This document shows positions 3,569-61,871 of a DNA stretch of 64,000 bases, piece by piece. The stretch is from Siphonodentalium dalli. Lineage: Eukaryota; Mollusca; Scaphopoda; Gadilida; Siphonodentaliidae. The notes under the pieces were generated by a model. It had not been told where the DNA came from and searched no databases. It worked only from the letters and a program-made list of their open reading frames with translations. The stretch spans positions 41,627,912 to 41,691,911 of the forward strand of contig CP136064.1 in NCBI GenBank assembly GCA_032622095.1, written 5' to 3'. A program made the translations under genes and the position numbers. Position 1 is the stretch's first letter, and the number at the start of each line of letters is the position of its first letter.

Positions 3569-4308
3569 TGGTACTTTGATTAATCATCAACACCAGCCAC
3601 TGGGGTATGAAAACAACCACCACCCACATTATTTTCATCTCGGGATATCGGCACTTCAATAATATCAATAATACAACATTGAAACCAATCAAACATTCTC
3701 ACGCAAACATTTTATCTGTTTGAATACAATGTCTCTGTTGTGACATTGTGTGTCTTCCAAATACGATACAGGACACTTACAGTAATGCCCTAATTAATCA
3801 ACTGCTGTGGTTAGAGAGTCGATTAATTAGGGCATTACTGTAGTTCTAGGATTGGGCTGGATTAATCACTTGATGTTTTCAGTACTTTATTTAGCCGGGT
3901 GGTCAAAATGTACTTGTCTGGCATGAACCATGCACGTGGGCAGCACGGACGATTACTTACTGTAGTCTATAGCACACAGTAAGGTCCTGTACATGTACTC
4001 TATACATTATCACACATGTTTGGGGATTTCTACCTGACTGTTTTTCCAGTATACTGGAATATTTGCATTGAAATAATCTAGTGAGGGATCCTTTCATTTA
4101 GATGAAAATTAACTATCTATGGCTCATTGATTTCAAATACAAACTTATTAGTAAGTGGAACAGTTCAACTGAAATATTTCTGTCAGGTATTTTCCATTTC
4201 TGAAATATTTCATTGCCACGGAAAATTGTGCACACAATTATAGGAGAGTTCAGCATAGAATAACTCCATTTTGTACAAACAGTTCTGAGTGCGATATACT
4301 TGAGAGCA
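3569..4308. other. Non-coding spacer with a short foldback MITE
   Basis: AT-rich sequence with no convincing exon on either strand. Apart from the hairpin element at 3778-3842 no repeat structure was recognised. Confidence 0.45.
3778..3842. mobile_element. Internally deleted foldback MITE (CAGTAATGCCC family)
   Basis: A TA-flanked hairpin with arms CAGTAATGCCCTAATTAATC and its complement around a CTGTGGTTAGAGAG-type loop. It is the deleted version of the roughly 200-bp palindromes at 33041-33239 and 52360-52570. CAGT termini and TA flanks suggest a mariner-like non-autonomous family. Confidence 0.8.
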
Positions 4309-17165: not shown

Positions 17166-17332
17166 TACTATATATTTTGAGACTTCCGTATATATATGTG
17201 TGTGTGTGTGTACTTCATAGAATCGAAAACACGTTGACGGATCGAGCTCAAATTTCGTATATAAGTGTAAAATCCCACGGACACCGCCGTGGTCGCGTTT
17301 TGGAGAAACTCAGAGCACCGTTTCTCCCTTTA

Positions 17333-29263: not shown

Positions 29264-29663
29264 AGAACTACCAAATGTTCCACTGTTCAGGCTAGAATTA
29301 GATAAGAATCACCTCTGGCGATATACACACACTGCTATAGTCATTGTCTGAACTTAGTTATCTCCAATTTGTGTGCCATTACACCAGTAAGGAACATGAT
29401 AGAAAAACTGAAAGAGGTATGCCTCTTTTTCAATGCCAGTCCTAAATGAGAAGCATTATTAGTGAATATTGTCAGTGTGTCTGTGCCACACAACGTGTCG
29501 AGGCGGAAGCCAATTTTAGACTTGTGCAAGACTAGATGGGCTGAATGGCACGAGGCCTACAAACATTTTTACCAATCTTACATATACATTGTTAAGGCCC
29601 TAGAGGTTATTGCCTATGGTCTGCACGGAGGTGAGGGGTTTGACAAGCTACTTGTTGAGGAGT

Positions 29664-31395
29664 AGACCCCGAAGCCACGACAAATAGTTTTCATGGCTGG
29701 CTTAACCGATTTTCGTGGCTGGTTAGCTAGCTAAGCCGGCTCAGTCACGACGTTCGTGGCTGACGAAATATGGCGGCTGAGCCGGCTGAGATGTTGTCAT
29801 TCAGCGTATTCTCGTTTCCGAAATGTTCCTAATCCCCTGTTACCGGTTATAGCGCCGTTATTTTAGCGTTTGTGGTGAACCCGTAGAATTCCAGACCACA
29901 CGTAATCTTTTGATGTTGGGCTTTTCCATTATGGCGAAAATCCATGAATGACTGGTATGGATATACTATGTAGTTTCCCATCTAATCGGTATAAGTAGTT
30001 ACATTTGGGACTTCTGTCGACTTCAGACTGCTACCATCACTGCCATCTTGCGATATATGCATGCATCATTGAATGATGAACCCGATAGTAATGATATATA
30101 ATATTTCAAACTATTTTCTATTCTTATGTGTATTATATATTGACAAATGCCAGCGATGTCCGAGACTGTGTGTTGTCGATATAAACAATTTATATTTTAA
30201 CCCTTTCAATACCGAATGGATGCGCCCATTCAGTTATATGAAAGCATGCATTAGGATAGTCTATTCCACACTAAGGGTGCCCGGCGTTCTGATAATATAA
30301 CAACCATGCCGTGTCCATGCGAGTATATGCCAATATTAGGCAATGCGGTTTAGTTCTTTGCGATTCACAGTACAGTTGTGCTTGACATATATAAGCCCAT
30401 GCACATGGCTCAGCCATTTTACAATTCCGGTGGCGGAGATTTTTAAATGTGGCTGGCGTTAGAGATAATATGGCTGGCGGCGGCTTGTGGCCAATATGGC
30501 TGGCGGCGTGCGATGGCGGCTTCGGGCTCTATTGAGGAGGGAGACTGGAATTCCAATAGCAAGTCAAGAGCAGCATCTGCTTTAAACGCCGTCACTCAAT
30601 TCAAGTTTATCGTTGTCTTTCTTGTGGTGTACCAGTTGCTGGGACGTATGGAAGGCATCACGGTTCTCCTTCAACGAGAGGCGAATGACATCATCAAGGC
30701 CATATCCATGATCCAAGACATCTCAGAAGAATACTGAGACATACGATCGTCAATGGAGCCATATTTCATGAAAATTTACAACCATGCAGTTGTAGTGGCA
30801 AAGAATGTGAGCGTGGAACCATCAATGCCAAGAATTAATAATAGGCAGACAAATAGGGCCAATGCAGAGGCAGAAACCTCAGAACAGCACTACTTGCGGA
30901 ACGTGGCTATTCCATTCTTAGACCACGTGTTGGTGTTCCTGAACGAGAAATTTTCAGAATCAATTGAAAACGTGTCGAAGATGTTGATGGTTGTGCCCAG
31001 AGTTGTTCGAATGTCACAGCCTACATTTTCTGATTTGTCTCTGGTCTTTGAAACATACGCCTGTGACCTTCCTAATTCATCTCCTAACATCTTTGAAGAT
31101 GCACCGAAGATGATATCCGAAGAACATCTTCGGATGCCCTGCAGAAGTGCGATCAAATGTTATATCCGAATATCTACATTATTCTCAAAATTGCCTGCAC
31201 AAGTTTTTCTTGTGAGCAGAGTTTCAGCGCCCTCCGTCGCCTGCATCGCCTGCATCGCCTGATGCACATATACTATTACTTCGGAGTTAAAACTGACCAA
31301 GTACTCGATATATTCTGTGCGGAAAATCCGAGAAGAGTCAAGTTTGAAAGTTTTGCCGAATTACCTTATGCATATACATGAATACATTCCCCAAC
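29664..31395 (+). mobile_element. Decayed hAT transposon (P52rIPK-like transposase) with long terminal region
   Basis: It starts TAGACCCCGAAGCCACGACA and runs through an 860-bp non-coding terminal region (GTGGCTGGTTAGCTAGCTAA, CCCTTTCAATACCGAATGGA, AAGCCCATGCACATGGCTCA) that recurs as the foldback arms at 37022-39332. Transposase-like coding sequence follows from about 30526 to 31380. The right terminus was not found. Confidence 0.7.
30526..31380 (+). pseudogene. hAT transposase pseudogene, P52rIPK/ZMYM-like
   Basis: Three frame pieces make one protein. The first (to 30737) has FKFIVVFLVVYQLLGRMEGI and ends at an in-frame stop after SEEY. The second (from 30753) reads VSVEPSMPRINNRQTNRANA, then HYLRNVAIPFLDHVLVFLNE. 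The third (31157-31380) reads YPNIYIILKIACTSFSCEQS, FSALRRLHRL. These are the familiar VEP-MPR--GRQ--R-N, YY-R-IPFLDH and C-ERSFS-LRR blocks of hAT transposases related to the 52-kDa repressor of the inhibitor of PKR. Much of the middle is missing, and stops plus a frameshift make it dead. Confidence 0.82.
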
Positions 31396-32299: not shown

Positions 32300-32420
32300 C
32301 TGGATGGTCCGTTCCCCGGAGGGTACCTCCTTGTTCTTGTTGATGATAGTTCTTGGGAAGAGGCTGTATGTAACCCTTTCATGATGGGAGCTGCGCTGGT
32401 GCAGCATTAAAGATAAGCCA
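32300..32420. repeat. Fragment of the TTAACCCTTTCAT foldback family
   Basis: TAACCCTTTCATGATGGGAG, CTGCGCTGGTGCAGCATTAA, AGAT matches one terminus of the elements at 51128-51331 and 52768-53030; the other half is absent. Confidence 0.65.
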
Positions 32421-33020: not shown

Positions 33021-33040
33021 ACATCGTCTCGCTCTACATA

Positions 33041-33239
33041 CAGTAATGCTCTAATTAATCGACCTCTTAACCACAGCAGAATTATGGGTAACTTTTCAGG
33101 TTTTAGTCGGAAATATGGCTTGTTGCCATTCATCGGAAAGCTCTCGATGAATGGCAACAAGCCATATTTCCGACTAAATCCTGAAAAGTTACCCATAATT
33201 CTGCTGTGGTTAAGAGGTCGATTTATTAGAGCATTACTG
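33041..33239. mobile_element. 199-bp foldback MITE with TA flanks
   Basis: A near-perfect palindrome with arms of about 95 bp. CAGTAATGCTCTAATTAATC, CACAGCAGAATTATGGGTAA and TATGGCTTGTTGCCATTCAT pair with their complements around AAGCTCTCGATG. TA lies on both sides (33039-33040, 33240-33241), typical of mariner-like insertion. Confidence 0.9.
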
Positions 33240-33373
33240 TATATAACTAGCTGATCCTAGCTGGTTTACATGCGAGCAAACTTGGACTAAGCCTATAATT
33301 GTGTTGGGAAGATCAAAAAAGTGTTCGGGGGGAAGTTAAAGTAATTGGGAAAACGAAGCACTGCAAATACAGT

Positions 33374-33523
33374 CAAGCCTTGAAATAGTGTCTGTCATTT
33401 GCAGAATGAGGTCCCCAGAGGGTGAATTTAGTGATGCTACCCCCGCATAGCAGGCTAGCATCACCAAATTCACCCTCTGGGGACCTCATTCTGCAAATGA
33501 CAGACATACTATTTCAAGGCTTG
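33374..33523. mobile_element. Palindromic MITE (CAAGCCTTGAAATAG family), full copy
   Basis: CAAGCCTTGAAATAGTGTCT, GTCATTTGCAGAATGAGGTC and GTGAATTTAGTGATGCTA pair with their complements on the right. It lies about 265 bp upstream of the HGH1 start codon, so it could sit in the 5' region of that gene. Confidence 0.88.
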
Positions 33524-33789
33524 AGTACACTACCACGCAGTGTGGCATGCATTTTATGAGGATATTCACTGTTCGTTGTCATAATTTAGAGTCCTACATT
33601 ATCTAATCCCCTACAAAATTAATCAGTTAATAAGGTAATTTGTTCACTTCATTGGCAACAAGGAGACAGCAAATATTGGTAAAGAAATTAATATTTCAAT
33701 TGTTTATGATGATCCTCAAAATGTATTATTATATTCTTCAAACTTTACAGCGAATTTCTCTTGAAATTTCAGAACTGAACTAGTCTGCA
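33524..33789 (+). promoter_or_regulatory. HGH1: HGH1 5' flank with acceptor-like sites
   Basis: Pyrimidine-rich TATTATATTCTTCAAACTTTACAG ends at 33750 (written here as a tract, AG at 33749-33750), and a second TTGAAATTTCAG ends at 33772, 17 bases before the ATG. Either would suit a splice acceptor, suggesting a non-coding first exon further upstream. No TATA box or CpG-rich promoter was seen. Confidence 0.35.
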
Positions 33790-34453
33790 ATGGCTGAAGG
33801 GGTTCATCCCAAAGTGATCGAAGAACTGATTCAGTTTTTGACACCTGAAACCCGCACAGAACTGAAATTGAAAGCGACAGAGACTATTCTAGGCTTAACA
33901 GGCTCAACTGATGGTAAAGCTCTTTTCAAAGAAAATCGTGAAATTATAGATGGATTGCTTTCCCTGAAGTCAGATCTTAACAAGGATGTTCAGAAAAATG
34001 TGTTTGAGGCACTAGTCAACTTAACGGCAGATAAGTTGTTCGTTGATAAATTACTCGAGTCTTCAAATCATCCATCGTTGTGTGTGGATCTTCTGAGATA
34101 TGCAATAGATGCAGACAGTGTGAATGCTGATTTGGGACTCAAAGTGTTAAACAACATCACTCACCATGAACCTGGCGTTAATCATGTAAGCACGCAAATA
34201 GGTAATATTGCTGATATGAGTATTCGCCAGTTCTTCGATATCTTGTTTGACCTCACTTATAACAAAAACTCAGATTTGCATTTTCTTGCTGCTGTTTTGT
34301 CAAACCTATCACAAATCAAAGAGAATCGGACAGTTATTATGGCACAGGACAACAATATATTGAAGAGGATCCTCTCATTCATCAAGTTTGAAGGTTCGAT
34401 TGTTAGGAGGAGAGGAGCAGCTGGTATTGTTCATAACTGCTGTTTTGATACAG
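33790..34453 (+). CDS. HGH1: HGH1 exon 1
   Basis: It starts at the first ATG of the frame (MAEGVHPKVIEELIQFL) and ends GATACAG before donor GTAGGT. The 664 bases leave phase 1; the split codon becomes Glu-222 with exon 2. Confidence 0.95.
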
Positions 34454-37400
34454 GTAGGTAACCAGGTGTAAATTATACGAATTTGTTTTCTCCAAAGATT
34501 TTAACTTCACATCTTAAAAGCTGTGTATTTATCTGATTGCATGGTCCCTTTATTATTCCTATTTGCACAATGGAAGCACATGCTTTTATTTGGCTGTTGC
34601 TTGTTCTGTATTTTTGTATTTTAATGTTCGTTGAATGTATCCAAAATCATACACAAAGAACCCTCGAAAATAAAATGAAAAAATAAAATAAATTGAAAAC
34701 ACTGCCTGCCCGGCCATGTATTTTTTGGCCTGGCTAGGGGGAACACAGCTTCCATTTATTTTGGCATTAGCAGGCGATGGTTAAGATTATTTCATGACAT
34801 AGTGTAAACTAAATATAGCTTTGAGACTTAAATATACAGCATGACGTCACCATACACAAAGCGCTATGTCGTCTGCAGTTTTGATTTACAATTGCGACGT
34901 GCTACCATTTAATTCCATCAGCCTATATTAGTTTATGTTTACTCTCCACTTAATTAAATAAGCATTAGCGGATCTAGTAGGTTCTAGTAGGTCCTACGCT
35001 TTTGAGTTTGGAATTTAATAATCTTGTAGAATTAAGGGATATCAAATTAAACTTTTATTCACTTTATAATTGAAGGCCTACACAGATAAAATTGCGTTAA
35101 TAGAAGTGTTTACTTGTGTGTAACATCATCAACTTACGGGGAATAATGTCATGTCATAGATTTAAGTGTTATGGCTATATCTACGGCACCGGAAATGGAC
35201 CACAGACTTTCCTTTATTATTGTACTATTGTAAACTCAGCCCTCATAATTGGCTACAGCAATCAGCAACGATGATTCGTCGATGAAGCCATTTGCTGAAG
35301 TAAACTGGGCCATGGCAAATGGTTGCCGTAGCGGATTGCCAAACCCAAACAACCTGAATTAAGAGTGCACCTGCGATTATGACGTCTGTCGGACCTTTTT
35401 TTGTTTGAGTTATCCCCCTTTTTCGACTTAGAATTTTTTCGCAACATGTATACTTTTGTCCGAGCTTTTATTCCTACATTTTTAGGTCATTTTTTTTAAA
35501 ACGTGGCACAGATATTTAGTACCATGGGAACTTGTGCACCTGCGATTATGACGTCTGTCCGACATTTTTTGGTGGAGTTATCCCCCTATTCGACTTTTTT
35601 TTTTTGCAACATGCATAATTTTGTCCGAGCTTTTATTCCTACATTTTTCTTTGAAATCTTTCAATGTTTTTTAATCTTGGCACTGATATTTAGTACCATG
35701 CGAACCTGTGCACCTGCGATTATGACGTCTGTCCGACATTTTTTGTGTGGAGTTATTCCCCTTTTCGACTTTTTTTTTTTGCAACATGCATAATTTTGTC
35801 CGAGCTTTTATTCCTACATTTTTCTTTGAAATCTTTCAATGTTTTTTAATCTTGGCACTGATATTTAGTACCATGCGAACCTGTGCACCTGCGATTATGA
35901 CGTCTGTCCGACATTTTTTGTGTGGAGTTATTCCCCTTTTTCGACTTAGAATTTTTTTCGCAACATGCATAATTTTGTCCAAGCTTTTATTCCTACATTT
36001 TTCGGTCAATAGGTTTAAGATTAGGGTTATGGTTGTACACCTGCAATGGGAACTGTTATTTTATTATTTTAACTAAATGTTTACTGACATGTGAAACATC
36101 TTAATATTTTTAAAACGGGGGTATCTGTAGTTCCATTGGGACAGTCACACCTCTAGTTCCTATTTGCACAATGGAAGCACATGCTTTTATTTGGGTGTTG
36201 CTTGTTCTGTATTTTTGTATTTTAATATTCGTTGAATGTATCCAAAATCATACACAAAGAACCCTCGAAAATAAAATGAAAAAATAAAATAAATTGAAAA
36301 CACTGCCTGCCCGCCCATGTATTTTTTTGGCCTGGCTAGGGGGAACACAGCTTCCATTTATTTTGGCATTAGCAGGCGATGGTTAAGATTATTTCATGAC
36401 ATAGTGTAAACTAAATATAGCTCTGAGACTTATATATAAGCATGACGTCACCATACACAAAGCGCTATGTCGTCTGCAGTTTTGATTTACAATTGCGACG
36501 TGCTACCATTTAATTCCATCAGCTTATATTAGTTTATGTTTACTCTCCACTTAATTAAATAAGCATTAGCGGATCTAGTAGGTCCTACGCTTTTGAGTTT
36601 GGAATTTAATAATCTGCTAGAATAAAGGGATATCAAATTAAATTTTTTATTCACTTTATAATTGAAGGCCTACACAGATAAAATTGCGTTAATAGAAGTG
36701 TTTACTTGTGTGTCACATCAGCAACTTACGGGGAATAATGTCATGTCATAGATTTAAGTGTTAGGGCTATATCTACGGCACCGGAAATGGACCACAGACT
36801 TTCCTTTATTATTGTACTATTGTAAACTCAGCCCTCATAATTGGCTACAGCAATCAGCAACGATGATTCGTCGATGAAGCCATTTGCTGAAGAAAACTGG
36901 GCCATGGCAAATGGTTGCCGTAGCGGATTGCCAAAGCCAAACAACCTGAATTAAGAGGGCTGCAAACTATGTAAAGGATATAAATGAGGGAGCGGAGTTC
37001 AAATATATATATCGTTTGTTCTTAGACCCCGAAGCCACGACAAATAGTTTTCGCGGCTGGCTCAACCAAATTCGTGGCTGGTTAGCTAGCTAAGCCAGCT
37101 CAGTCGTCGTGACGTTCATGGCTGATGAAATATGGTGGTTCAGCCGGCTGAGACATTCAGTGATCATTCAGCGTATTTTCATTTCCGAAATTTTCATAAT
37201 TCCCGGTTTTAGCATTTGTTATGAACCTGCAGAATTACAGATCACGCTTGCTCTTTTTTGTGTTGGGCTGTTCCATTATGGCAAAAATACACGGAAGGAC
37301 TGGCATGGATGTACTATGTAGTTTCCCATCTAATCGGTATAAGTTACATTGGGCCAAAGAAAAAAGATTTTTTTTTCACTGTATTTGCATCTAATGCTCA

Positions 37401-40400
37401 TAAATATTGATGATCATTAGTGTGCAAAACACATAGTTTCTAACATATCCCTGTGATAAGTGACAATGAAGTGACAGTTGTCTCAAAAGCCCCAGGTGTG
37501 TGATGGGTTGTGGATTGATGGGCATGATTTTAGCAATTTTATTTTCCTGACAGTGGATCTCATGCCTGCTTTATGCCTTGTAATGTTTGGGACTTATGGA
37601 ACATAGGAACACTATCAACAGACATGGTTGGTGTGTATCTGTATATATACATGTATAGAGGTTATCACCACATATGTTAGGGGTACAGCTACTGTTTCCA
37701 AAAACCAGGCATGCTAGTTTGGGTGTACTGGCTACTTCCAGACAATGGGATGTAGTCGTCACAATACAAGTACGGTATAATGGCGGTATTATGGGTAAAA
37801 TTCTTATTAAAAGTTAGTGACATAAATTTCATACCAAGTTTATAGCCAAATTTATGAAAATGTGGTATGTGAATAATAAACATACTTAAGCATGAAGTAA
37901 GTTTGATCTTTTATCAATCTTAATGTATATTTCCACTGTGTTGATCAAGTAATACTTTCCCCACAATACGAGTTGGCATTTTATGTCACTTCTGTCGAGG
38001 TAGTTCAATATTTCTGCAGCTGGATAAAAAATTAAAAAATTAAATTTCCCCACCTACCTACCCTAATTTTTTCGCTCCGTTAGCGGAAGCATACAATCTT
38101 TTTTTTGGCCTCATGATATAATACATGTATTTGAAACTACTTTCTCTGGTCTTCTGCAGGTTATGTGTATATATTGACAAATGCCAGCGATGTCTGAGAG
38201 CGAGTCGTGTCGAAATAATCCAATTATACTTTAACCCTTTCAATACTGAATGTATTCTCCCATTCAGTTATGTAATAGCATGCATTGAAATAGTCTATTC
38301 CACATTGGGAGGCCTGGGTGTTCTGATAATATAACAACCCTATCGTGTCCATGCGAGTATACCAATATTAGGCAATATGGTATTTCCTTGTGATTCGCAG
38401 TACAGTTGTGCTTGACATATAAGCCCATGCATGCGGCTCAACCATTTTATAATTCCGGCGGCGGAGATGTTTTCATGTGGCTTAGAGCCCGAAGCCGCCG
38501 TCGCACGCCGCCGCCGCCAGCCATATTGGCCACAAGCCGCCACCAGCCGTATTATCTCTACGCCAGCCACATAAAAAAATATCCGCCGCCGGAATTGTCA
38601 AATGGCTGAGCCGCAGTCATGGGCATATATGTCAAGCACAACTTCACTGTGAATCGCAAAGAACTAAACCACATTGCCCATATTTGTATATGTATTCGCA
38701 AGGACTCGGCATGGTTGTTATATTTTATTAGAACACCCGGGCCTCTCAATGTGAAATAGACTATTCCAATGAATGCTTTCACAAAACTGAATGGGAGAAT
38801 CCGTTCAGTATTGAAAGGGTTAAAGTATAAATTGTTGATTTCGACACGACTCAGTCTCAGACATGCCTGGAATTTGTCAATATATGCATATAACCTGTAG
38901 AAGGGAATAGAAAATAGTTTGAAATATTATATCATTAGGACCTACTATCGGATTCATCATTCAATGATGCATGCCAGTGATGCTATAGCAGTCTGAAGTC
39001 GACAAAACTTCCAATGTTACTTATACCGATTAGATGGGAAACTACACAGTACAGCCATGCCAGTCCTTCGTGTATTTTTGCCATATTGGAAAAGCTCAAC
39101 ACCAAAAAGAGCACATGTGGTCTGAGATTCTACGGGTTCACCACAAACGCTAAAACAAACGGGGTCTATAACCGGGGATTATGAAAATACGCTGATTGAT
39201 AATGTCTCAGCCGGCTGAGCCGCCATATTTCTTCAGCCACGAACATCGCGACTGAGCCAGCTTAGCTAGCTAACCAGCCACGAAATTGGTTGAGCCATCC
39301 GCGAAAACCATTTGTCGTGGCTTCGGGGTCTAATGTGGCTGGCATTAGAGATAATATGGCTGGCGGCAGCTTGTGGCCAATATGGGTGGTGTGCATTGTG
39401 GCTTCGTGCTCTACTTGTTCTCATAATTTTATGCTTACAGAATTCCATAATTGGCTCCTAAGTGAGGATGTTGATATTCTCCCTCATCTCTTACTTCCGC
39501 TGGCTGGTCCGGACGAGTTTGACAATGAGGATACAGAGAAGCTTCCTGAAGATCTACAGTACCTTCCACCTGATAAACAGAGGGAACCCGATCCGAAAAT
39601 CAGGAGGCTATTCATTCAATCAGTTCATCAGGTCAGTTATTTATAGACACAGAAAGAGCTTTCATTGCCTACTGATGTTTGACCAACATATATTCATTGT
39701 TAACTCAAAATCATTTTAAATGCAAGTGAAATGTTCAAATGAAATTGACAGGATGGAAGTATAAAGCGAAAGGTTTTGTTGACAAACTTCACCTAGTGAC
39801 GTGATTTGATATGTCTGTTGAATATCTGTCATATTGCCCCGTCGAAAACTTATGGATGTCTATATATTATCAGACATCGAAGTGATATCTAAGGTATCAA
39901 AACTTAAGTAAATATCATGATTATTACATGTATCACCAAAATTAGCAAAGACTGCAAACAGTGTGTCTGTCATTTGCAGAATGAGGTCCCCAGAGGGTGA
40001 ATTTAGTGACACTATCCCGCACAGTGGGCTGGCATAACCAAATTTACCCTCTGGAGACCTCATTCTGCTTAGGCCTCAACTGCTATGGGAGACCTAGCAT
40101 CCGATTTTGAAGTTTACGCATTAGTCACCTCAATTATACAATTTATCTTCTGCAAATTAGGGGATATAGAAACTGAACAGAAGGGAAAAATTTACTAAAA
40201 ACAATGTTAAATTGAGACGATAGATAATTCCCAGAAGATGAGGTCTAAATAGAATGAGGTCCCCAGAGGGTGAATTTGGTGATGCTAGCCCTCTATGCAG
40301 GATAGCGTCACTAAATTCACCATCTAGGACCTCATTCTGCAAATGACAGATAAACTATTAGCAAGCTTGAAAGACGCCTGTGTTTAAAGCTGAGAACTGA

Positions 40401-51127: not shown

Positions 51128-51331
51128 TTAATCCTTCCATAACTAGAGCTTCCAGAAATTTTATGAAAACCCTGTGCCAATGCATTCTCTTATATAATGC
51201 GAGTCTCCCAGAGTCTCCCATACATTGGCCTAACAATATTTATCTTGACATTGTAAACCAATGTATTCTCTTATATATGCGAAGCTTAATATAATACTGC
51301 ACCAGCGCAGCTCCCATCATGAAAGGGTTAA
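51128..51331. mobile_element. TTAA-flanked foldback element, degraded copy
   Basis: It starts TTAATCCTTCCATAACTAGA and ends GCGCAGCTCCCATCATGAAAGGGTTAA (described as CATGAAAGGG-TTAA). Inside are degenerate GCCAATGCATTCTCTTATAT hairpin arms at 51180 and 51257. TTAA borders and CCCTTT ends suggest a piggyBac-like MITE. Confidence 0.75.
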
Positions 51332-52359
51332 GCCATGAGCCCTGATGAGCCTGCATAATTATGGGAGGTTAAAGCGACATCTAGCAATTTATCAAAACAG
51401 AAATTGAATTTCTCTTAAAGATAGTTTATGATCTCTTCCTAGCAAGTTTTATATAGATTCCAGGTATAAAATAATAGATTCAAGGAAATCCTTCTGGAAA
51501 AGCTTCTATCCATAATTTTTAATTTCGATTTTATTTGGAATTTTTCTCATATTAATACAACCTTCTGATGGGACAGGAAAGGGGGCTAGTTTTAACAGAA
51601 ATCTCACAGAAACGTTCTGAGCATACCAAGGGGGAGAACTCTATCTTGTTAGCTCTTGTTGGGAATGCTGAACAAAGCGATTTGTGGGGTTTCATTTCTG
51701 TTTAGATAACTTTTTTCTCTCACAAGGAATTCTCTTAAAATTACAATAAACTGAATTATTTTATAAAAAAGATAATTAGGTAGCCAACATTTTTGTTGAG
51801 AGAAACGTATTTCGGTTGAGAGAAATAAATTTTTATAAATGGGAAAATTATTTAAATTAGGGGAAAATCTTAAGAGAAATAGCTTCTGTGGCAAAGCCAA
51901 ATGGATTACTGCAAAAAAAAAAAATTCACCTTCTCTTTATGTACAGAAGTTAATTTTCTGTTATCGAAATCTAAATTTCTATTTTTAAAAATATATTTCT
52001 CGACAGAAATTTGTTCAGAGATTGAAATCATTTTTTATCTCTTATTTTATGGGAAAAGACCTAAATTTTGAATATATAGGATTCTTTACTAAATGGATTC
52101 TCCCACCCAATTATAAAATTATACATGGAAATGATCTGTTATTTATCTGGAGGGATGTTCAGGTAATATAAGCAGACAACAGACTGGGAACAAATATAAA
52201 TACAAATGCAGAAGAATTCATATTCATGGGTGGGAAATGTTCAGATAGTAAGTTCAACAATCTGAACATTTCCTAAGGGAACGACTCGTCAATGAATATT
52301 AACTTTTATAGAAAGGGTTAACAGACCCAAGGGTCATATTCTAGGCAAGGCATTAGCTA
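51332..52359. other. Spacer with one dispersed repeat
   Basis: The part 52135-52320 (TTATCTGGAGGGATGTTCAG, GGTGGGAAATGTTCAGATAG, GAACGACTCGTCAATGA) recurs at 53215-53400 and inverted at 61900-62050. The rest is AT-rich with no exon. Confidence 0.6.
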
Positions 52360-52570
52360 CATTAATGCCCTAAATAATCGACTCCTTAACCACAGCATAA
52401 TTATGGGTACCTTTTCAAGATTTAGTCGGAAATATGGCTTGTTGCCATTCATCGGAAAGATCTGTGAGAGCTTTCCGATGAATGGCAACAAGCCATATTT
52501 CCAACTAAATCTTGAAAAGTTTCCCATAATTCTGCTGTGGTTGAAGAGTCGATTATTTAGGGCATTAATG
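52360..52570. mobile_element. 211-bp foldback MITE with TA flanks
   Basis: CATTAATGCCCTAAATAATC, CACAGCATAATTATGGGTAC and TATGGCTTGTTGCCATTCAT with complementary right arm; TA at 52358-52359 and 52571-52572. Same family as 33041-33239. Confidence 0.9.
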
Positions 52571-52767
52571 TATCTCGACTAGACTTTTACCAATGAGAGC
52601 ATTAATAATTAGTTAACCCAGAGACCAAACATACTTTTGATGACAAGAGCAGGGTTCTTGATGTAGGGGCTACAACCTCCTTGTCCTCCAGTCACCGATG
52701 TTATTCATATTTTATTTTGGGAAAGTACCCTTCTTGACCATCAATGTTTCAACCACCCCTCCCTAGT

Positions 52768-53030
52768 TCAACCCTTTCATGACGAGAGCTGCAGTGGTGC
52801 AGCATTAAAGATCCTGTGCCAGTGCATATCTTATATATGCGAGTCTCCCATATGAGCCTCGCATATATAAGAGAATGCACTGGCTTACAAGGTGAAATTT
52901 AGTTTGGCCAATGTGTTCTCTTTTATATATTACGAGGATCCCTATACGAGGATCCCTCGCATATATAAGAGAATGCATTGGCACAGGGTTTTCGCAAAAT
53001 TTCAGGAAGCTCCAGTCATTGAAGGGTTAA
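52768..53030. mobile_element. TTAA-type foldback element with two hairpins
   Basis: The left end is TCAACCCTTTCATGACGAGA (TTAA mutated to TCAA) and the right end AGCTCCAGTCATTGAAGGGTTAA. Inside are two head-to-head hairpins with CTTATATATGCGAG arms (52818-52902 and 52905-52985). Confidence 0.8.
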
Positions 53031-54241
53031 ATATCAATCTACACAAGCTTACCATAATAACATCCTCTGCTTGGTGCCTTACTCCAGCAGTAGTACACAA
53101 TTACCTACAGTTGGGAGGTAATAATACTTAGCTAGTATTTCAAATCTATACTGAGCTCTTTGTCTTGGCAATGGCCATTGGATTGTGATTTAGACAGGGT
53201 CCGATCATTAATCACAATGGTCTATTATCCATCTGGAGGGATGTTCAGAACATATGAGCAAATAACAGAGATACGAAACGATAATACAAGTGCAGAATAA
53301 TTCATATTCATTGGTGGGAAATGTTTAGATAATAAGTTCAACAAATGACCTAAGGGAACTGCTCGTCAATGAGTATTTAGTACAGAAGGGTAAATTAAAT
53401 TCAACGGTTGGGTATAAATTACATGGAACGATTCTAAAGATTGCAAAAAAATTTATTGACAAAAATATATAAACTTTACTAAAATAGACAATACTGCTAG
53501 AATTTCAATAAAATATATAGACCCTTTCAACAATGAGCATCTGTCATGCATTCAGTGAGGTAACAAATGTAATAAATAAGAACAAGAGACAGACATGATT
53601 CAAATACAACCCATAAATTCCTGATAAAGGTCTCTATTATCAGCTTTTACCCTTTATTTACTGAATGGATCCCCAATGTCCATGTACAAAGGTCATGTGA
53701 CTTCCGTTCGCAATGGCAACACATGTTAGAAGTTACAAGTACGTTGTCAACTGACTGATTGAAGTAAGTTTAAAAGTCAGCACATAGAAAAGTGATGAAG
53801 TTGAACAGTTTGTTTCTGAATTATGAGGTTGTAATTTCACATTTTAAAATAAAATGTGTTAAAGATAGTGTATCTCTTCCAGGCCACAATTACAACAACA
53901 ACATTTTTATAGAACCCGTTTCAAGACTAAATACCTTAATGTTTCTTATAAAGGCATAATAAAGTGGTCTATTTCTGATGCAGCTGAGTTAAATCTCTGA
54001 ATTGACATGTTGCCATGGAGAAGGGTGCTAACACGACAGAGTTCTCCCTCCTCCTACATTCCAATGTTTATGCAGGTTCTCAATAAAAAAAAATTTAATT
54101 GATAGAAGCATTTCATTGATTCATAGCTACTATTTTATTTTATACCCCCCCCCCCCCCCCCCCCCCCCACCCCGGAATCTATATAAAACTTGATAGGAAG
54201 ATATACACTTTCTTTAAAGGCCCCCTGCGGGAGAATGGAAT
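53031..54241. other. Spacer with a dispersed repeat and a 24-C run
   Basis: 53215-53400 is the second copy of the TCTGGAGGGATGTTCAG repeat. A poly(C) tract lies at 54145-54168. No exon was seen. Confidence 0.55.
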
Positions 54242-54352
54242 TTAACCCTTTCAGTGCCAAGTCCGATTTTTGTATCAACCCATATTTCCTTGATCAATGA
54301 TCAAGGAAATGTGGGTTGATACAAAAATCGGACTTGGCACTGAAAGGGTTAA
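54242..54352. mobile_element. 111-bp TTAA-flanked palindrome
   Basis: TTAACCCTTTCAGTGCCAAG and ATTTTTGTATCAACCCATAT pair with the right half around TTGATCAATGATCAA; one mismatch was noticed in a stem of about 55 bp. It is the minimal form of the TTAACCCTTTCAGTGCCA family that also borders 59258-59746. Confidence 0.92.
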
Positions 54353-55550
54353 CTTTATGGCATAAACACAAATCTCAGTGATAAATAGCCAGGTTTGGCT
54401 CGAGTGCTTTTTATATATCTTGTTTTGAAGGAATGTCTGTAATGTGTATCAACAAAAACATCACACATATCAGTCAATCATCCAAAATAAAAAATTGAAA
54501 ATAAAACGGCATGTTGTATGAAAATGAAAACATTTGTCAATAAATTATAACAAGTGAATTAACAATCTTCAGATTAAATAAATAATATTATGTACAACAA
54601 TCTGTATAATTAGAGAGAATTATTTGGTATAGCAATTATTTAAAAAGACAAAATTATCACAGTATCTCTGACCGTATTGTAAAAACAAGTTATCAGAGTC
54701 CGAAATCACTGGGTGACAGTGCCTCATCATTCTCTAAAAACAAATATTATGGTACCTAAATCTGCCAAGTAAAGTTGGTAAAAACTGAAGTTTTATGTCG
54801 CTTTCAGCCTCAGCAGATGCGAGTCTATCGCTGCCAGTTATAAATGTGGAAACAGACTACCCACTGGGAAATCACACCACTGCACACAGAAGCCACCGAC
54901 CAATGGTAAGCAGTCGCTCACTGTGTGTTAGGTTTCCACCAGTAATAGAACTGAAAAAAATTGGAATATGGCCTAGTAGCTGAAGCGACAATAAGCCAAA
55001 AGTAAACCAACCAATGACAGATGGCGGTGTGTAAGTCAGGCTCAAAACTATAAGACTGCTACTCAAATTTGAGAGTTTTAGAAGAAAATAAGAATGTTTG
55101 ACATGTGCTGAAATGTATACGCGTTCGATAAAGTGAAAAACTCTGGAAACCACCTATACACATAAATATATTTTAACATAGTATTGCACCATTGTAGTGA
55201 ATATTCATATTTTCAAGTACTAGTAGTTTCAATTTATGCTTTTGACTTGTGGTAATTCATCCATAAGTCTTATTTCAGGGTAGTATGCCTTAATGGTAAT
55301 TACACACAAACCATATAACACCCAGTGGTGATAGGACATTAATGGGGCAAAGCAAGTGATAAAAAGGTAAAAATTTGCCATACTGTCCCACCAAAGAATA
55401 TTTTCACATATTTCTAGGGTTTCAGATGATAGTAGCCAGGGTCTATTTAAACTCATGCCAATGCAGTTGAGGACTAAACTTGTGCAGAAAAAAGTCAAAA
55501 CTCGCATTGAATGGTACAAACATTTACATTTGTATATGCCCATGCCCGTT
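54353..55550. other. Spacer with hydrophobic minus-strand frames
   Basis: Two minus-strand open frames (55543-55229 and 55153-54872) encode hydrophobic segments. No family is recognised and AT-rich minus frames give such products by chance. Confidence 0.3.
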
Positions 55551-56030
55551 TTGAAAAAAACGGAACATATTATGTTATTGGTTTTTATCGTTTCCGGATG
55601 ATAACTTTAGTAAGTCTGAACTGAATGGAATGAAATTTGGTATGTGGGTTTACTAGCCCAAAATAAAGGTCAAATTTTTGGGTACTGCCCACCAATTTTT
55701 GCCAGAGTTATGGTCCCTGTTGACTTAGAATTTGCCGATTATTTTGGTTTCCAGGTGATAACTTTAGTTTTAGTTATCTGATTGTTTTCAAATTTGGTAT
55801 ATGGATTACTCATATGAAAATACAGGTCAATATCAAATTTGGGTTCCATCCACCTATTTTAATTAACCAGAGTTATGGTCCTTGTTGACTTATAATTTGA
55901 CGATTATTTTGGTTTCCGGGTGATAGCTTTAGTTATAGTTATCTGTTTGTTTTAAAATTTGGCATAAGGATTAATCGTTATGGCCCTTTGTTGAAATTAC
56001 CATGGGCACAAATTGCCACGTCCTAGCGAT
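55551..56030 (+). repeat. About 180-bp tandem repeat, 2.5-3 units
   Basis: Units share GATTATTTTGGTTTCCGGGT, GATAACTTTAGTTTTAGTTA, TCTGATTGTTTTCAAATTTG and CCAGAGTTATGGTCCTTGTT. Confidence 0.85.
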
Positions 56031-56518
56031 TCTCTTGTTTTCAATTAAAGTGATGGTTTCATTTGTCCACAATTCAGTCCAAAGCGTATGTAGTTAGAGT
56101 TCATTTTAACTTTTTCAGTTGTTAGTATAAAACTTGATTATAAATCTCTATCAATAGATTGTTGCCTATTCAACTCCATTGTTTCTGCACTCCCAAAGTT
56201 GTTCAGTGGTATGGCAGGAACTTATTAGTTCTGAACAACTCAGCCTTGTATGCTAATGGTTTTTCACTGTCATGTATATGAGCATGTTATTTCAGCACAT
56301 GTGTATGTATTCAGATATGAATGGAAATTTGTCAAACATATAAAAGGTCTAGAAAAAAATAGAAAGAAGTGGCAGAACTTACCACCAAATGGACGGATTC
56401 AAAATAAAAAACTAAACACACGTAAGTTCAGAGTTCCTATAGTAAGAATAAAGACATGGTAATATTTATGCTATCAGCTGCACAAGTGGAGTAATAAATT
56501 TTTTTTGGTTTACTGGAG

Positions 56519-56908
56519 TTAACCCTTTACCCAACAAACCGGCCAAATAAAGCTTCAACAGCCTAAAATATCTTCGGTCTGTCTCAATAAAACCATACAA
56601 ATATGGATATCATTGGAACCGGCTCCTTGACCACATTGTGATAGTTACAGTTATGCCCTGTGCCAATGCATTCTCTTATATATGCGAGTCGACCATAGGT
56701 CGCCTCGCATATATAAGAGAATGCATTGGCCTAAAAAAAATCTTTTTTTAACACTTTTTACCATTTTTTCTTACATTCTTTAACAATTTTATAATTTTTA
56801 ATGTGTTAAGCCAATGCATTCTCTTATATATGCGAGGCGACCTATGGTCGACTCGCATATATAAGAGAATGCATTGGCACAGGGCCGTTCTGTTGGGTAA
56901 AGGGTTAA
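56519..56908. mobile_element. TTAA-flanked foldback element, two nested hairpins
   Basis: Outer ends are TTAACCCTTTACCCAACA and the exact complement. Each inner side has CCTGTGCCAATGCATTCTCT, TATATATGCGAG hairpins (56655-56733 and 56809-56877) separated by an A/T-rich centre. Predicted outer and inner arms can both pair. Confidence 0.9.
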
Positions 56909-57246
56909 TGTAGGTTATTTTACATATCACAATTAGTTAACATAATTATGTAGACATCACAATAAGCAGCAATGACAGCTCGCCTAATAAGACTAAATGC
57001 CACTCATCACATTCAAATAACGTTTACTCAAGAGACATACTCAGATTTACAGACAAAACATATAACATCGCACAAGACTCCACTTTAATGTACATTGAAG
57101 CACCCTCTTCAAATTATTGTACTCCATCAGTGTAAGAATTGAAAATAGAGCGAAAAATAATACAGATTTATACATAGGAATGTTGAAAGACACATTGATA
57201 ATACAGTATGAAACTGAAGGGTGGTGACATTTAGTTCAAGTTTGAA
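56909..57246. other. Spacer
   Basis: No feature recognised. Confidence 0.4.
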
Positions 57247-57762
57247 CTAACACTTCCATGACTGGAGCCAAGTCTTGAAATAGGGTGTCTGTCATTTGCA
57301 GAATGAGGTCCCCAGAGGGTGAATTTAGTGATGCTACCCTGCATAGCGGGCTAGCATAACCAAATTCACCCTCTGGGAACCTCATGTAAGCAGAATGAGG
57401 TCCCCAGAGTGTGAATTTGGTGATGCTAGCCCGCTATACAGGGTAGCATCACTAAATTCACCCTCTGGGGACCTCATTCTGCAAATGACAGACACCCTAT
57501 TTCAAGGCTTGACTGGAGCTCTGAAATTGTGTCAAAACCCTGTGCCAAATAAATGCGTCTCTTATATATGCGAGTCGCCCATAGGGAGACTCATATATAT
57601 AAGAGAATGCATTGGCCTAACAATATTTATCTTAACCTTGCAAGCCAGTGCATTCTCTTATATATGCGAAGCTCCCTATGGGAGACTCAAATATATAAGA
57701 GAATGCACTGGCACATGATCTTTAATGCTGCGCCAGCGCAGCTCCCTTCATGAAAGGGTTAA
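57247..57762. mobile_element. TTAA-type foldback element interrupted by a hAT-like palindrome
   Basis: The left part is AACACTTCCATGACTGGAGC and the right end CTTCATGAAAGGG-TTAA. The hairpins with CTCTTATATATGCGAG arms lie at 57537-57625 and 57645-57716. The 57269-57511 palindrome sits inside the left arm. Confidence 0.78.
57269..57511. mobile_element. Tandem-palindrome MITE (CAAGYCTTGAAATAG family) with 8-bp TSD
   Basis: Two GAATGAGGTCCCCAGAG palindromes in series lie between terminal CAAGTCTTGAAATAGGG and its complement. ACTGGAGC flanks both ends (57261-57268, 57512-57519), a perfect 8-bp duplication, placing this palindromic family with hAT-like transposition. Confidence 0.9.
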
Positions 57763-58212
57763 GCAGCATTCAGATGACTGCATTGCGTTGGTTCATTGTG
57801 ATGACACAATCAGTTGTCTACATCAAACCGTTCACATGGGTGCGATGCGTTATAACACAGATCTTACGATTGCAGCTACTAAGTTCGATATTGGATTAAA
57901 TGCTATATTGTAAATCAATCTATCTATTATAAGTGAATTCTACAATAATTCCAAACCTGTCAAATACCAACAATTAATACTTTATTGACATAAATTTCCT
58001 TTGTTTCGCAGACAGCTGCCATCTTTTATTGATTGAAAACAAGATGCATGCGCTTAATTACCATATAAGGTATGCGTTAAAATTAGAATCTCTCTCCTTT
58101 TTGTGCAATAATGGATACAAAGTGATGGACTCATCACAGACGTCAAAAAGCCTTAGAGTTATTGTCTGTATTCCAATTTCCAACGCAATAGATTCATCTG
58201 CACACTCCTTTA
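57763..58212. other. Spacer
   Basis: Short open plus frames only; none recognised. Confidence 0.4.
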
Positions 58213-58590
58213 CAGTAATGCCCTAAGTAATCGACCCCTTAACCACAGCATAATTATGGGTAACTTTTCAGGATTTAATCTGAAATATGGCTTGTTGCCA
58301 TTCATCAGAAAGCTCTCGGGGAGAGCTTTCCGATGAATGGCAACAAGCCATGTTTTTCCACTGGTATCAAGCCTGAAAATAAGGTCCCCAGAGGGTGAAA
58401 TTTAGTGATGCTAGCCTGCCCTCTGGGAACCTAATTCTGCTTAGACCTCAACTGTTATGGGAGACCTAGGATCAAAATGAAGTTCCCCAGTTGAAGTTGG
58501 CGATGTTCACCCATTAGTTACTTCGATTATGCATTTTATCTTTAGCAACTTAAGGGATATAGAAACTTCCCAGAAGGGAAACAGTAACTG
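58213..58590. mobile_element. Chimera of two foldback families
   Basis: CAGTAATGCCCTAAGTAATC to AAGCTCTCGGGGAGAGCTTT and CAACAAGCCATG (to about 58354) is a mariner-like palindrome whose right arm is cut short. It passes into AAGGTCCCCAGAGGGTGAAA and GGGAGACCTAGGATC, the other palindrome family with the linker seen at 40080-40250. Confidence 0.75.
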
Positions 58591-58817
58591 AAACAATTTT
58601 AATTTCATAAATAGCTATTAAGCTGGCAAACATAAATTTTGTTCACAATGGTTTTGGTCTTTCAAATATCCACAAATGAAAATGGGATGAAATGATGAAT
58701 AACATAAACAGTAATAACAGTAACGAATTTCATACAAACAAATTGAAGCACAAATTTATGTTAAAAGACTGACACTTTTGGAAGAACATGAGAACATGAT
58801 AAGACCATACTGGTTCT

Positions 58818-58928
58818 TTAGGAATCATCATGATCTCGGCTGTGAGAATGCTTTTGTTTTTTCTGTTTATGAAGTTTTTCCCATTCTTTTTGTCGATGTT
58901 TCTCCTTCTGTCTTTCCTTATCAGCCTC
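58818..58928 (-). CDS. Terminal coding exon, Lys-rich coiled-coil protein (unrecognised)
   Basis: On the minus strand the acceptor ATATATCATTACAG is followed by 36 codons, EADKERQKEKHRQKEWEKLH then KQKKQKHSHSRDHDDS, and TAA. The highly charged helix with a basic, His/Ser-rich tail is typical of nuclear proteins. It joins in frame (phase 0) to the exon at 60301-60435. I cannot name the gene. It could be one of several exons; upstream ones may lie beyond the window. Confidence 0.55.
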   Translation of the reverse strand, partial: EADKERQKEKHRQKEWEKLHKQKKQKHSHSRDHDDS

Positions 58929-59257
58929 CTGTAATGATATATAAAAGTGTAACGTCAGGTGTGGCAAAAAAAAAAAAAATGACACCCAGTAGCTAGGTCC
59001 TGCAATTTTCGCATTTTGTATTACATTTTTTATTTTGAGTTGCAACAGTTTCGATTCAATTCATATATGAACTCCACTATATTCTTGTTGATTTATCATC
59101 TACCAATGCTTCAGAGCATCATAATTATGATAAAATAATTTCGACATAGATTGGAATCATCTGCAATGTTGCCCCATCAAAGTGCACATACAACCTTTTA
59201 GTTTGACGTCAAAGACTCGCAATCATGCAATGACATATCATAAAGTCAATTCACTAT
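58929..59257. other. Putative intron between the two minus-strand exons
   Basis: AT-rich, no feature recognised apart from the acceptor polypyrimidine context at its left end. Confidence 0.4.
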
Positions 59258-59746
59258 TTAACTCTTTCAGTGCCAGGGGCCGATCTCATCGGCCCTAATT
59301 TACGGTCTGTAGAGTGCCAGGGTCAATAAAATCGGCCCTAAAAAAATAAAAAATGTTTTTGTTTTTTTTGGGTTGAATTTTTTTTGGGTATGCTTAAGCA
59401 TGCTATAACGAATTTAAAAACAAACTGGATAAAACCTTAGGGGCATGTTATAACTCAAAACTATCACCAAGTATTCATAGTAATAATTTTGATGCCCATG
59501 AAAAACGTAAGATTCCCTGGCACTAAACCTACAAAATAAGTCTGGCACTGAAAGAGTTGAAGAATATAAGAACAAAATATTAAAATTGTAAAAAATAATA
59601 ACAAATGATGAAAAATTGTTAGACCAATGCATTCTCTTATATATGTGAGGCGACCTATGGTCGACTCGCATATATAAGAGAATGCATTAATTGGCACAGG
59701 GTATATGGGTTGATACAAAAATCGGACTTGGCACTGAAAGGGTTAA
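59258..59746. mobile_element. TTAA-flanked foldback element with TTAACYCTTTCAGTGCCA ends
   Basis: The left end is TTAACTCTTTCAGTGCCAGG and the right end GGCACTGAAAGGG-TTAA. An internal GGCACTGAAAGAGTTGAAG at about 59542 marks a second border. A CTCTTATATATGTGAGGCG hairpin lies at 59624-59697. It is probably one element inserted in another. Confidence 0.75.
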
Positions 59747-60300
59747 ATGATAAGAAGCTTCTCAGCGAAATGAGCTCTTAAATCAATTGTGCTGGAAAAT
59801 CCAACAACTTATTCAAATTATTTGGGTTATTACATCAGATGTTCACACACAAAAGCCACATTTATATCACCAAGAACATACTTCAGAAGACTCACATATG
59901 AGTCGGAACTTATAAATGCGGACATCCTCGGCCATTCATACTTTGTGTTGTGGCTCATTGTCTGCATGGATAAAGTATTTGGCCGAATTGGATCGAATCA
60001 AATCACGATTCGGACAAAATAATACCCTAATTTTAGCGACCAACGCACCCCTCGAAATTAAGAAAAATGTTCCACGGCAAATTTAATGTTGTGTCATGTT
60101 AGATACCACAGCATTTCCCATGGCATTGCTTATTGCCGTTGTCAGTATCGAGGACAGCCTACCAGTAGCTGACAATAATCACTGCAGCCCTAAATAACAA
60201 CTGTTGAATGACATATGTGAATAATATAACTAAGCTGTAACACTATTGGTCATCTTTTATTGAAACACCTAAGCCATAGCGTAGAAAATACAATACTAAC
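59747..60300. other. Remainder of the putative intron
   Basis: No repeat or exon recognised. Confidence 0.4.
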
Positions 60301-60435
60301 GTCTTCTTTAATCTTGTGAACAAGATATTCCACTTGCTGCATCAACATTTCCATTCTCTGCTCGTTAGTGTCCTCATCGTTCTGTAAAGATAAAGCTCTG
60401 TTTGCCGGGAAGAAATCTATACTGTTCTTTTCCAA
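60301..60435 (-). CDS. Internal coding exon of the same coiled-coil gene (unrecognised)
   Basis: Acceptor CTATTTTCAG precedes TTGGAAAAG and donor GTTAGT follows GAAGAC on the minus strand. The 135 bases are exactly 45 codons, phase 0 at both ends: LEKNSIDFFPANRALSLQ, then NDEDTNEQRMEMLMQQVEYL, VHKIKED. The heptad-like spacing and charge suggest a coiled coil. It would splice to the exon at 58928 to give KIKED-EADKERQ. No domain is recognised. Confidence 0.55.
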
Positions 60436-60681
60436 CTGAAAATAGAATAATCACATGTGAATTACAGTACAAGAAGAAAATTGCATGTTGTGAAGAAACT
60501 ATTCAACTGTTTTTTCAAATAAATAAGGTCATAATCTGAATGAACATACTTCTAAACATTTTCTTCCAGGGACCAGCCTAGAGTGCGACATCTCCCTAAA
60601 ATGTGCCACTTCTCCATATTTTTGTTCTAGCGAGAAGTTAAATAGCGAGAAGTAACTTCTCTCTCATATGCCACTATGCAC

Positions 60682-60807
60682 AATCCTTGAAATAGTGTGT
60701 ATGTCATTTGCAGAATGAGGTCCCCAGAGGGTGAATTTAGTGATGCTACCCCGCATAGCTGGCTAGCGTCACCAAATTCACCATCTGGGGACCTCATTCT
60801 GCTTACA
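60682..60807. mobile_element. Palindromic MITE (GAATGAGGTCCCCAGAGG family)
   Basis: CCTTGAAATAGTGTGTATGT, CATTTGCAGAATGAGGTCCC and GTGATGCTACCCCGCATAGC with a complementary right arm ending CATTCTGCTTACAC. Confidence 0.85.
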
Positions 60808-61004
60808 CAGTCCAATTATCCTTAATAATCTAATACTAGTAGGGAGAAGTGACTTTCCCGATATGAATACTCTGGGCTGTTTCCGTCTGTTTTAATAATC
60901 GTGAAAAAAAAAGTAAACAACAGTTCTTTTATTATAATGATCATATAACACCAGCATAATGTACGAATCAATGACTCTCTGATATATGATTTAACTGCCA
61001 TGTT

Positions 61005-61306
61005 TGATTGATTGATTGGGGTCTAATGTCACTTTCAGCAACTAAGGCCATATCACGACATTGCCAGTTTTAGTGGTGGAGGAAATCCGCACACTTACGG
61101 CTAATCTGACAGTGATTTCAATAAACTGATAAACTTGTGGACCATGTGCGGCAAACCACTGGCGAGTAACTGGCAACTCCACCAGATAACGATTTTGAGT
61201 TAAAAAGTCCATAATGGAAACATGTGGATTTGAACCCTTATCGCCAGCGCTGGAGCGTGAAACGGTTTGGAGTTGTACCCCTAACCAATTGAGCCACCGA
61301 GGCCCC
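61005..61306 (-). mobile_element. tRNA-derived SINE with (AATC)n tail
   Basis: The minus-strand head GGGGCCTCGGTGGCTCAATT then GGTTAGGGG carries a tRNA-like A-box, and GGTTCAAATCC about 55 bases on is a B-box. The element ends in ATCAATCAATCA at 61005-61018. An ORF across it encodes nothing recognisable. Confidence 0.75.
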
Positions 61307-61415
61307 CTGCCATGAATGCCACCCAAGTTAGTATGTTGTAAGTGAATAATTCTTCTGAATTGAGATCTTTCCATGAACTTACAAAATTTCTTTTTTATTC
61401 CTTTCTTTATTAAAT

Positions 61416-61871
61416 GTGACCCGCCATATCAAATCCAGTCGGAAGTCGTGATTTTTTTACCCTGTGCCAATGCATTCTCTTATATATGCGAGTCGACCAT
61501 AGGTCGCCCCGCATATATAAGAGAATGCATTGGCCTAACAATTTTTTACAATTTTAATAATTTTTTCTTGTATTCTCTAACAATTTTATAATTTCACCCA
61601 TACAGAGCCCCAGACAAACATGAGCAGACAACACTCTTCTATATGCTTCTATATATGTGTGGGGCTCCCTGCAGGGTAATGGATGTTTTTTATTTTATGT
61701 CCTAAAAATTGTAAGAAACATTTATTTAAAAAAAATGATAAAAAATTGTTAGGCCAATGCATTCTCTTATATATGCGAGGCGACCTATGGTCGACTCGCA
61801 TATATAAGAGCATGCATTGGCACAGGGTAAAAAAATCCCGACTTACGACTGGATTTGATATGGCGGGTCAC
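61416..61871. mobile_element. GTGACCCGCC TIR element with the two-hairpin core
   Basis: The ends GTGACCCGCCATATCAAATC, CAGTCGGAAGTCG and the near-complement are followed inside by TTTTTTTACCCTGTGCCAAT and CTCTTATATATGCGAG hairpins (61461-61535, 61756-61828). AAAT borders both sides (61412-61415, 61872-61875), a possible 4-bp duplication. The core is the same as in TTAA-flanked elements, but the termini are unrelated. Confidence 0.8.

Follow-up and report, generated by a model that had tools for sequence, protein, structure and literature searches.

A 64,000-nucleotide stretch of the genome of the scaphopod Siphonodentalium dalli (contig CP136064.1 of assembly GCA_032622095.1, positions 41,627,912 to 41,691,911), hereafter the window, on which all of our results rest, contains six loci in which all or part of the same core, composed of two hairpins and a spacer, is framed by ends of four types. 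The core stops at a common joint, one of the arms that frame it occurs with and without it, and the whole composite of the CCCTTTCAT type is present in three copies. These elements are probably chimeric nonautonomous miniature inverted-repeat transposable elements (MITEs), in which a two-hairpin module was captured as the interior by at least four types of ends and was then carried by these outer ends. Mosaic origin is the best reading because of the common border of the core, the homology of its spacer, and the equality of arms with and without core.

A search for the 20-mer GCCAATGCATTCTCTTATAT with up to three mismatches returned 18 matches in the window, versus 0.01 expected (mean of shuffles). 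All 18 fall within the following six framed loci, located between 51.1 and 61.9 kb.

51128 to 51331, minus strand: C1, composite of the CCCTTTCAT type; arm B, decayed core (51170 to 51286), arm A; TTAA at both ends.
52768 to 53030, plus strand: C2, composite of the CCCTTTCAT type; arm A (45 nucleotides), core (52813 to 52988), arm B (42 nucleotides); ends TCAA and TTAA.
56519 to 56908, plus strand: C3, composite with CCCTTTACCCAAC ends; core (56656 to 56884), arms of 137 and 24 nucleotides; TTAA at both ends.
57247 to 57762, minus strand: C4, composite of the CCCTTTCAT type; core (57538 to 57715), another foldback nested in arm B; ends CTAA and TTAA.
About 59563 to 59746, plus strand: C5, right part of a composite only; spacer remnant, one hairpin, and a TTAA-CCCTTTCAGTGCCA arm of 45 nucleotides.
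61416 to 61871, plus strand: C6, composite with GTGACCCGCC ends; arms of 44 nucleotides each, core (61460 to 61827); possible 4-bp duplication AAAT outside.

The four termini in which the first-pass annotation had placed the same hairpin pair are all present. That annotation had also counted at least five loci sharing the core but not the ends; the number of loci stands, with six loci and four end types, although C1, C2, and C4 share their arms and C5 has a single hairpin. Its description of the termini as unrelated applies in full to GTGACCCGCC, which is wholly different, but not to the other three, which begin with TTAA-CCYTTT and share 8 to 12 nucleotides. The asymmetric arms A and B are common to C1, C2, and C4, and in the hairpin tree (see below) the hairpin next to arm A in C2 groups with that in C4. 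We therefore count these three loci as one composite, copies of which spread as a unit, rather than as three capture events. C1 contains two hairpins, each lacking part of its 3′ half.

The core consists, in this order, of CCCTGT, a 33-bp hairpin, an AT-rich spacer, a hairpin, and ACAGGG, and its exact inverted ends are CCCTGTGCC and GGCACAGGG. Folding of five hairpin regions as DNA gave z-scores of −10.3 to −16.0, and folding from end to end gave −30.7 for C6 and −22.2 for C3. Tandem Repeats Finder detected no satellite-like array in the cores, only short AT-rich or loop repeats. Rfam at gathering thresholds gave no match, ARAGORN found no tRNA gene, the core, end, and nested-foldback sequences had no match in a viral contig collection, and a literal sequence search of papers returned none. 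Scans of a genome contig collection with the same sequences gave one match, in a Clostridium metagenome-assembled genome. We took this match, a 21-mer without a hairpin arm in the 181 bases read, to be due to chance. In all ten aligned hairpins, at least one half of the stem contains TATATAAGAG on one strand, a motif resembling a TATA box.

Ten core termini were anchored and compared, the right end of C1 and the left end of C5 being missing. Homology stops at CCCTGTG, within two bases, at all ten readable ends: the border reads CCCTGTG at eight of them and CCTGTG and CATGTG at two borders with arm A. Inward from TGTGCC, the first 24 nucleotides are 0.92 to 1.00 identical in all 21 pairs formed by the seven indel-free termini. 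The three others (C2 left, C4 left, and C5 right) carry indels, which lower ungapped identity to 0.50 to 0.75, yet they align over the hairpin. Over the 30 nucleotides outside the core, identity is 0.13 to 0.43 between arm types and 0.47 to 0.93 within one type.

The shared unit exceeds the hairpins, since C3, C5, and C6 also have an AT-rich spacer that is homologous among them. The spacer tests covered C3, C5, and both sides of C6; the spacers of C1, C2, and C4 are short. Among six comparisons in the same orientation, four gave scores that none of 300 shuffles reached; 3 shuffles reached the score of another, and 33 that of the last. When the C3 spacer was compared with C6 and C5 in reverse orientation as a control, scores were at chance level (213, 214, and 262 of 300 shuffles); comparison of this spacer with its own reverse, reached by 17 of 300 shuffles, says little. 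Homology thus extends across the spacer as far as the border of the core, which makes simple divergence of the ends unlikely.

Judged by their terminal nucleotides, three of the four end types appear to be piggyBac-like (TTAA, CCCTTT), TTAA being the target duplication, and the fourth appears to belong to another group. TTAA or a one-base variant of it is present at every piggyBac-type end inspected: on both sides of C1 and C3, as TCAA and TTAA at C2, as CTAA and TTAA at C4, and at the right end of C5. The terminal motif CC[C/T]T, which is the rule for piggyBac-type MITEs (PMC2872659), is found at seven of nine outer ends of C1 to C5, the arm-B ends of C1 (TCCT) and C4 (CACT) being one base off. 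C6 has neither TTAA nor this motif, its ends being GTGACC and GGTCAC and its flanks AAAT and AAAT. Assignment of C1 to C5 to Kolobok, which combines a TTAA duplication with 5′-RR ends (PMC9587614), was rejected because the ends start with CC, TC, or CA. Alignment between piggyBac-type arm types extends over just the 8 to 12 nucleotides at the ends, and the GTGACC arms of C6 match the other arms at chance level in 12 of 14 comparisons. Counted from the outer end to the last base outside the core, arm A comprises 45 nucleotides, arm B 42, the C5 arm 45, and both C6 arms 44, C3 (137 and 24) being the exception. This narrow range of 42 to 45 nucleotides is a lead, noticed post hoc in few independent cases.

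Related arms and ends also occur without core, at the following positions.

54242 to 54352, no strand assigned: coreless palindromic element with TTAA-CCCTTTCAGTGCCA ends, the first 44 nucleotides of which are those of the C5 arm.
59258 to 59560, no strand assigned: element without core, adjoining C5 on its left; TTAACTCTTTCAGTGCCA ends, different interior.
32370 to 32414, plus strand: arm A without core, homologous up to the point at which C2 and C4 pass into the core.

The C5 arm is identical to the palindrome at 54242 to 54352 over 44 nucleotides and then joins the core 12 nucleotides before the centre of that palindrome. The element at 59258 to 59560 has CAGTGCCA ends and an interior unlike the core. 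The copy of arm A is followed by other DNA and has no partner arm by self-comparison at an E value of 1e-5.

The hairpins of C3, C5, and C6, which are enclosed by three arm types, are 92.9 to 96.4% identical between elements. Within the CCCTTTCAT type, the hairpins C2 left and C4 right, both adjoining arm A, are 92.4% identical and have a changed base pair in common, whereas A-side and B-side hairpins are 73 to 86% identical. Three of 32 stem pairs (columns 16/84, 46/56, and 47/55) vary on both sides together. Pairing has thus been kept through change, either by selection or by templated correction, which are indistinguishable here. The hairpin tree comprised nine rows (C1 left was dropped as half a hairpin and C1 right was never included) and was mostly unresolved, one of its six inner branches, which unites the arm-A pair, being well supported.

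Several observations weigh against the mosaic reading with repeated capture of the core. The tree requires four changes of end-type label, which is the minimum and was equalled in 2 of 200 shuffles. The hairpin labels therefore cluster by end type, the tree alone shows no exchange, and its topology allows a single core lineage for each end type. Three of the four end types are each represented by one core locus, and repeated capture would be deduced from single loci. Two of the 14 GTGACC-arm comparisons, both with the C5 arm, gave weak matches (8 and 11 of 300 shuffles were as good). The position of the core in C3 is not central, unlike that expected for capture at the centre of a palindrome. 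Self-comparison at an E value of 1e-5 revealed no second GTGACC or CCCAAC element, although very short arms could escape this search. Finally, no transposase gene is known here, all six open frames scanned with Pfam being outside the cluster. The idea that one core came to lie in different ends by exchange, as the first-pass annotation had it, or by capture is supported: in each type of arm, homology ends at almost the same base, and the GTGACC arms match the others at chance level in all but the two weak cases.

According to the mosaic reading, the core would have been captured and would not have transposed by itself; it would have entered through break repair or template switching where a palindromic element is unstable, at its centre. 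Transposases encoded elsewhere would then act on the outer ends and move the whole composite. Capture at the centre of a palindrome fits the missing duplications, the near-central core of C1, C2, C6, and C4 (the nested foldback of the latter being ignored), and the joint of C5 12 nucleotides before the dyad. The core is near central in four of the five two-sided loci, which amounts to two of three independent composites. A broader proposal seems doubtful. It holds that the hairpin pair can be exchanged freely as an interior and is captured by unrelated DNA transposons of different superfamilies, at a broken palindrome centre about 45 nucleotides from the end, with neither a transposase nor a target duplication of its own.

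The core could instead be, or have been, an independent MITE with CCCTGTGCC and GGCACAGGG ends that became nested in the middle of other MITEs; the composites would have been amplified later, and the duplications around the core would have decayed. Whatever the context, the inverted core ends are at almost the same base; they start with CCCT, as do piggyBac-type ends, and a MITE inside another mobile unit has been published, namely, CMITE-IN of corals (PMC2872659). The exact inverted ends and the near-central position are weak hints of such independent mobility. Insertion footprints argue the other way. No target duplication beyond chance was found at the core borders of the four two-sided loci C2, C3, C4, and C6, at boundary shifts of 0, 1, or 3, the chance level being set by random places at 40.0 to 62.5 kb. 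The C6 core has TA on both sides, a state reached at shift 0 by 10.7% of the random places. TTAA is directly outside none of the ten core ends, and we therefore rejected the core as a TTAA element at its present sites. No solo core outside other elements was found among the 18 matches in the window. Ordinary nesting can be recognised by its mark in C4, in the following feature.

57269 to 57511, no strand assigned: foldback inside arm B of C4; CAAGYCTTGAAATAG ends; perfect 8-bp duplication ACTGGAGC.

ACTGGAGC flanks this foldback on both sides and has a single copy in arm B of C2, which is uninterrupted; the core bears no such mark. The core probably does not move alone, and the suggestion of the first-pass annotation that it is an independent mobile hairpin targeting foldback elements finds no support in the 64 kb, with 18 of 18 matches in framed loci and duplications at none of four pairs of core borders. 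Nested insertion with a decayed or absent duplication is possible, and an independent MITE at the origin of the core is a conceivable, if rather unlikely, explanation.

Local gene conversion among neighbouring elements might keep the cores alike, the captures being old. The six loci are confined to 10.7 kb of the 64 kb (P = 0.0007 for six points placed uniformly and independently, a value that treats the loci as independent when three of them are copies of one composite), and the joint changes of stem pairs are such as templated correction within a hairpin would yield. However, in the CCCTTTCAT type, the hairpins of the A side have stayed distinct from those of the B side, and conversion leaves the presence of the core in four end types unexplained, making this account improbable. 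That all ends form one family diverged beyond recognition, with the core kept by constraint, is highly improbable: TTAACCCTTT or a close variant is common to three end types, and the hairpin labels cluster by end type, but a spacer without evident constraint is alignable in C3, C5, and C6, the adjoining GTGACC arms are mostly at chance level, and one arm, identical over 44 nucleotides, exists with and without core.

The mosaic pattern is real and is a variant of one already in print, the closest precedent being the CMITEs of the coral Acropora. These are TTAA-flanked piggyBac-type MITEs with an internal region more conserved between families than the terminal inverted repeats (TIRs), and one coral element joins the TIRs of one family to the interior of another (PMC2872659). 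As in the coral, TTAA-flanked piggyBac-type MITEs of S. dalli have different TIRs around one conserved interior. This likeness is one of architecture, and we claim no CMITE membership. A single block of some 75 bases forms the coral interior, whereas the core is a pair of 33-bp hairpins, and the coral families are all treated as piggyBac-type, whereas one carrier here lacks TTAA and CCCTTT ends. The paired hairpins, the non-piggyBac carrier, and the arms of 42 to 45 nucleotides in three of four end types are new relative to CMITEs.

Other precedents are partial. Chimeric copies of Galileo in Drosophila mojavensis, including some with foreign internal regions, were explained by ectopic exchange; they are likewise foldback-like elements with TIRs and internal regions from different subfamilies (PMC3573991), but those are subfamilies of one transposon, whereas the ends described here are of different groups. 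MER6, which carries the V domain of V-SINEs (SINE, short interspersed element), is also an unrelated MITE bearing a conserved block (PMC6887750); that block is SINE derived, in contrast to the hairpin pair. Pearl-family MITEs of bivalves have a modular interior, with palindromes near the junctions in one element, but their interiors are tandem satellite-like repeats, and the cores have no such array (PMC5139131). Among the matches listed in open-licence literature, titles and the starts of abstracts mentioned no core shared by piggyBac-type and other ends.

The window contains further repeats. A foldback family with TACAGTAATGCYCTAATTAATC ends and an inner GGCAACAAGCCATATTTCC hairpin is present at 33035 to 33245, 52355 to 52575, 58211 to 58355, and 3778 to 3842, the last copy retaining almost only its outer arms, as after loss of a palindrome centre. 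A second foldback family (GCAGAATGAGGTCCCCAGAGGGTGAA; 33370 to 33524, 39948 to 40370, 57269 to 57511, 60681 to 60802, 5114 to 5227, and 58378 to 58419) includes single-hairpin, double-hairpin, and long-spacer forms, an architecture that resembles the core. A large imperfect foldback at 38109 to 38939 contains TTAACCCTTTCAATAC and has related segments at 29663 to 30531 and 37022 to 37352. An inverted pair of segments of about 1 kb, 79% identical, occupies 17323 to 19642, and two tandem arrays lie at 1 to 2193 (period 59, 37.7 copies) and 2524 to 3470 (period 41, 25.4 copies). The list of palindromes misses some hairpins (for example, 61466 to 61534 and 57644 to 57712), and its coverage of 2.2% is a lower bound. 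The open frames at 33784 to 34461 and 39266 to 39646 match parts 2 to 131 and 131 to 187 of Pfam DUF383, as an intron-split gene would; DUF383 is a domain of HGH1-type proteins.

The source of MITE interiors is an open question, and the coral authors wrote that the origin of the CMITE internal region "remains a mystery" (PMC2872659). The core, which has defined borders and occurs in four end types, one of them outside piggyBac, bears on that question. Filled and empty elements located side by side provide a concrete system for genome-wide comparison and for dating of the capture step.

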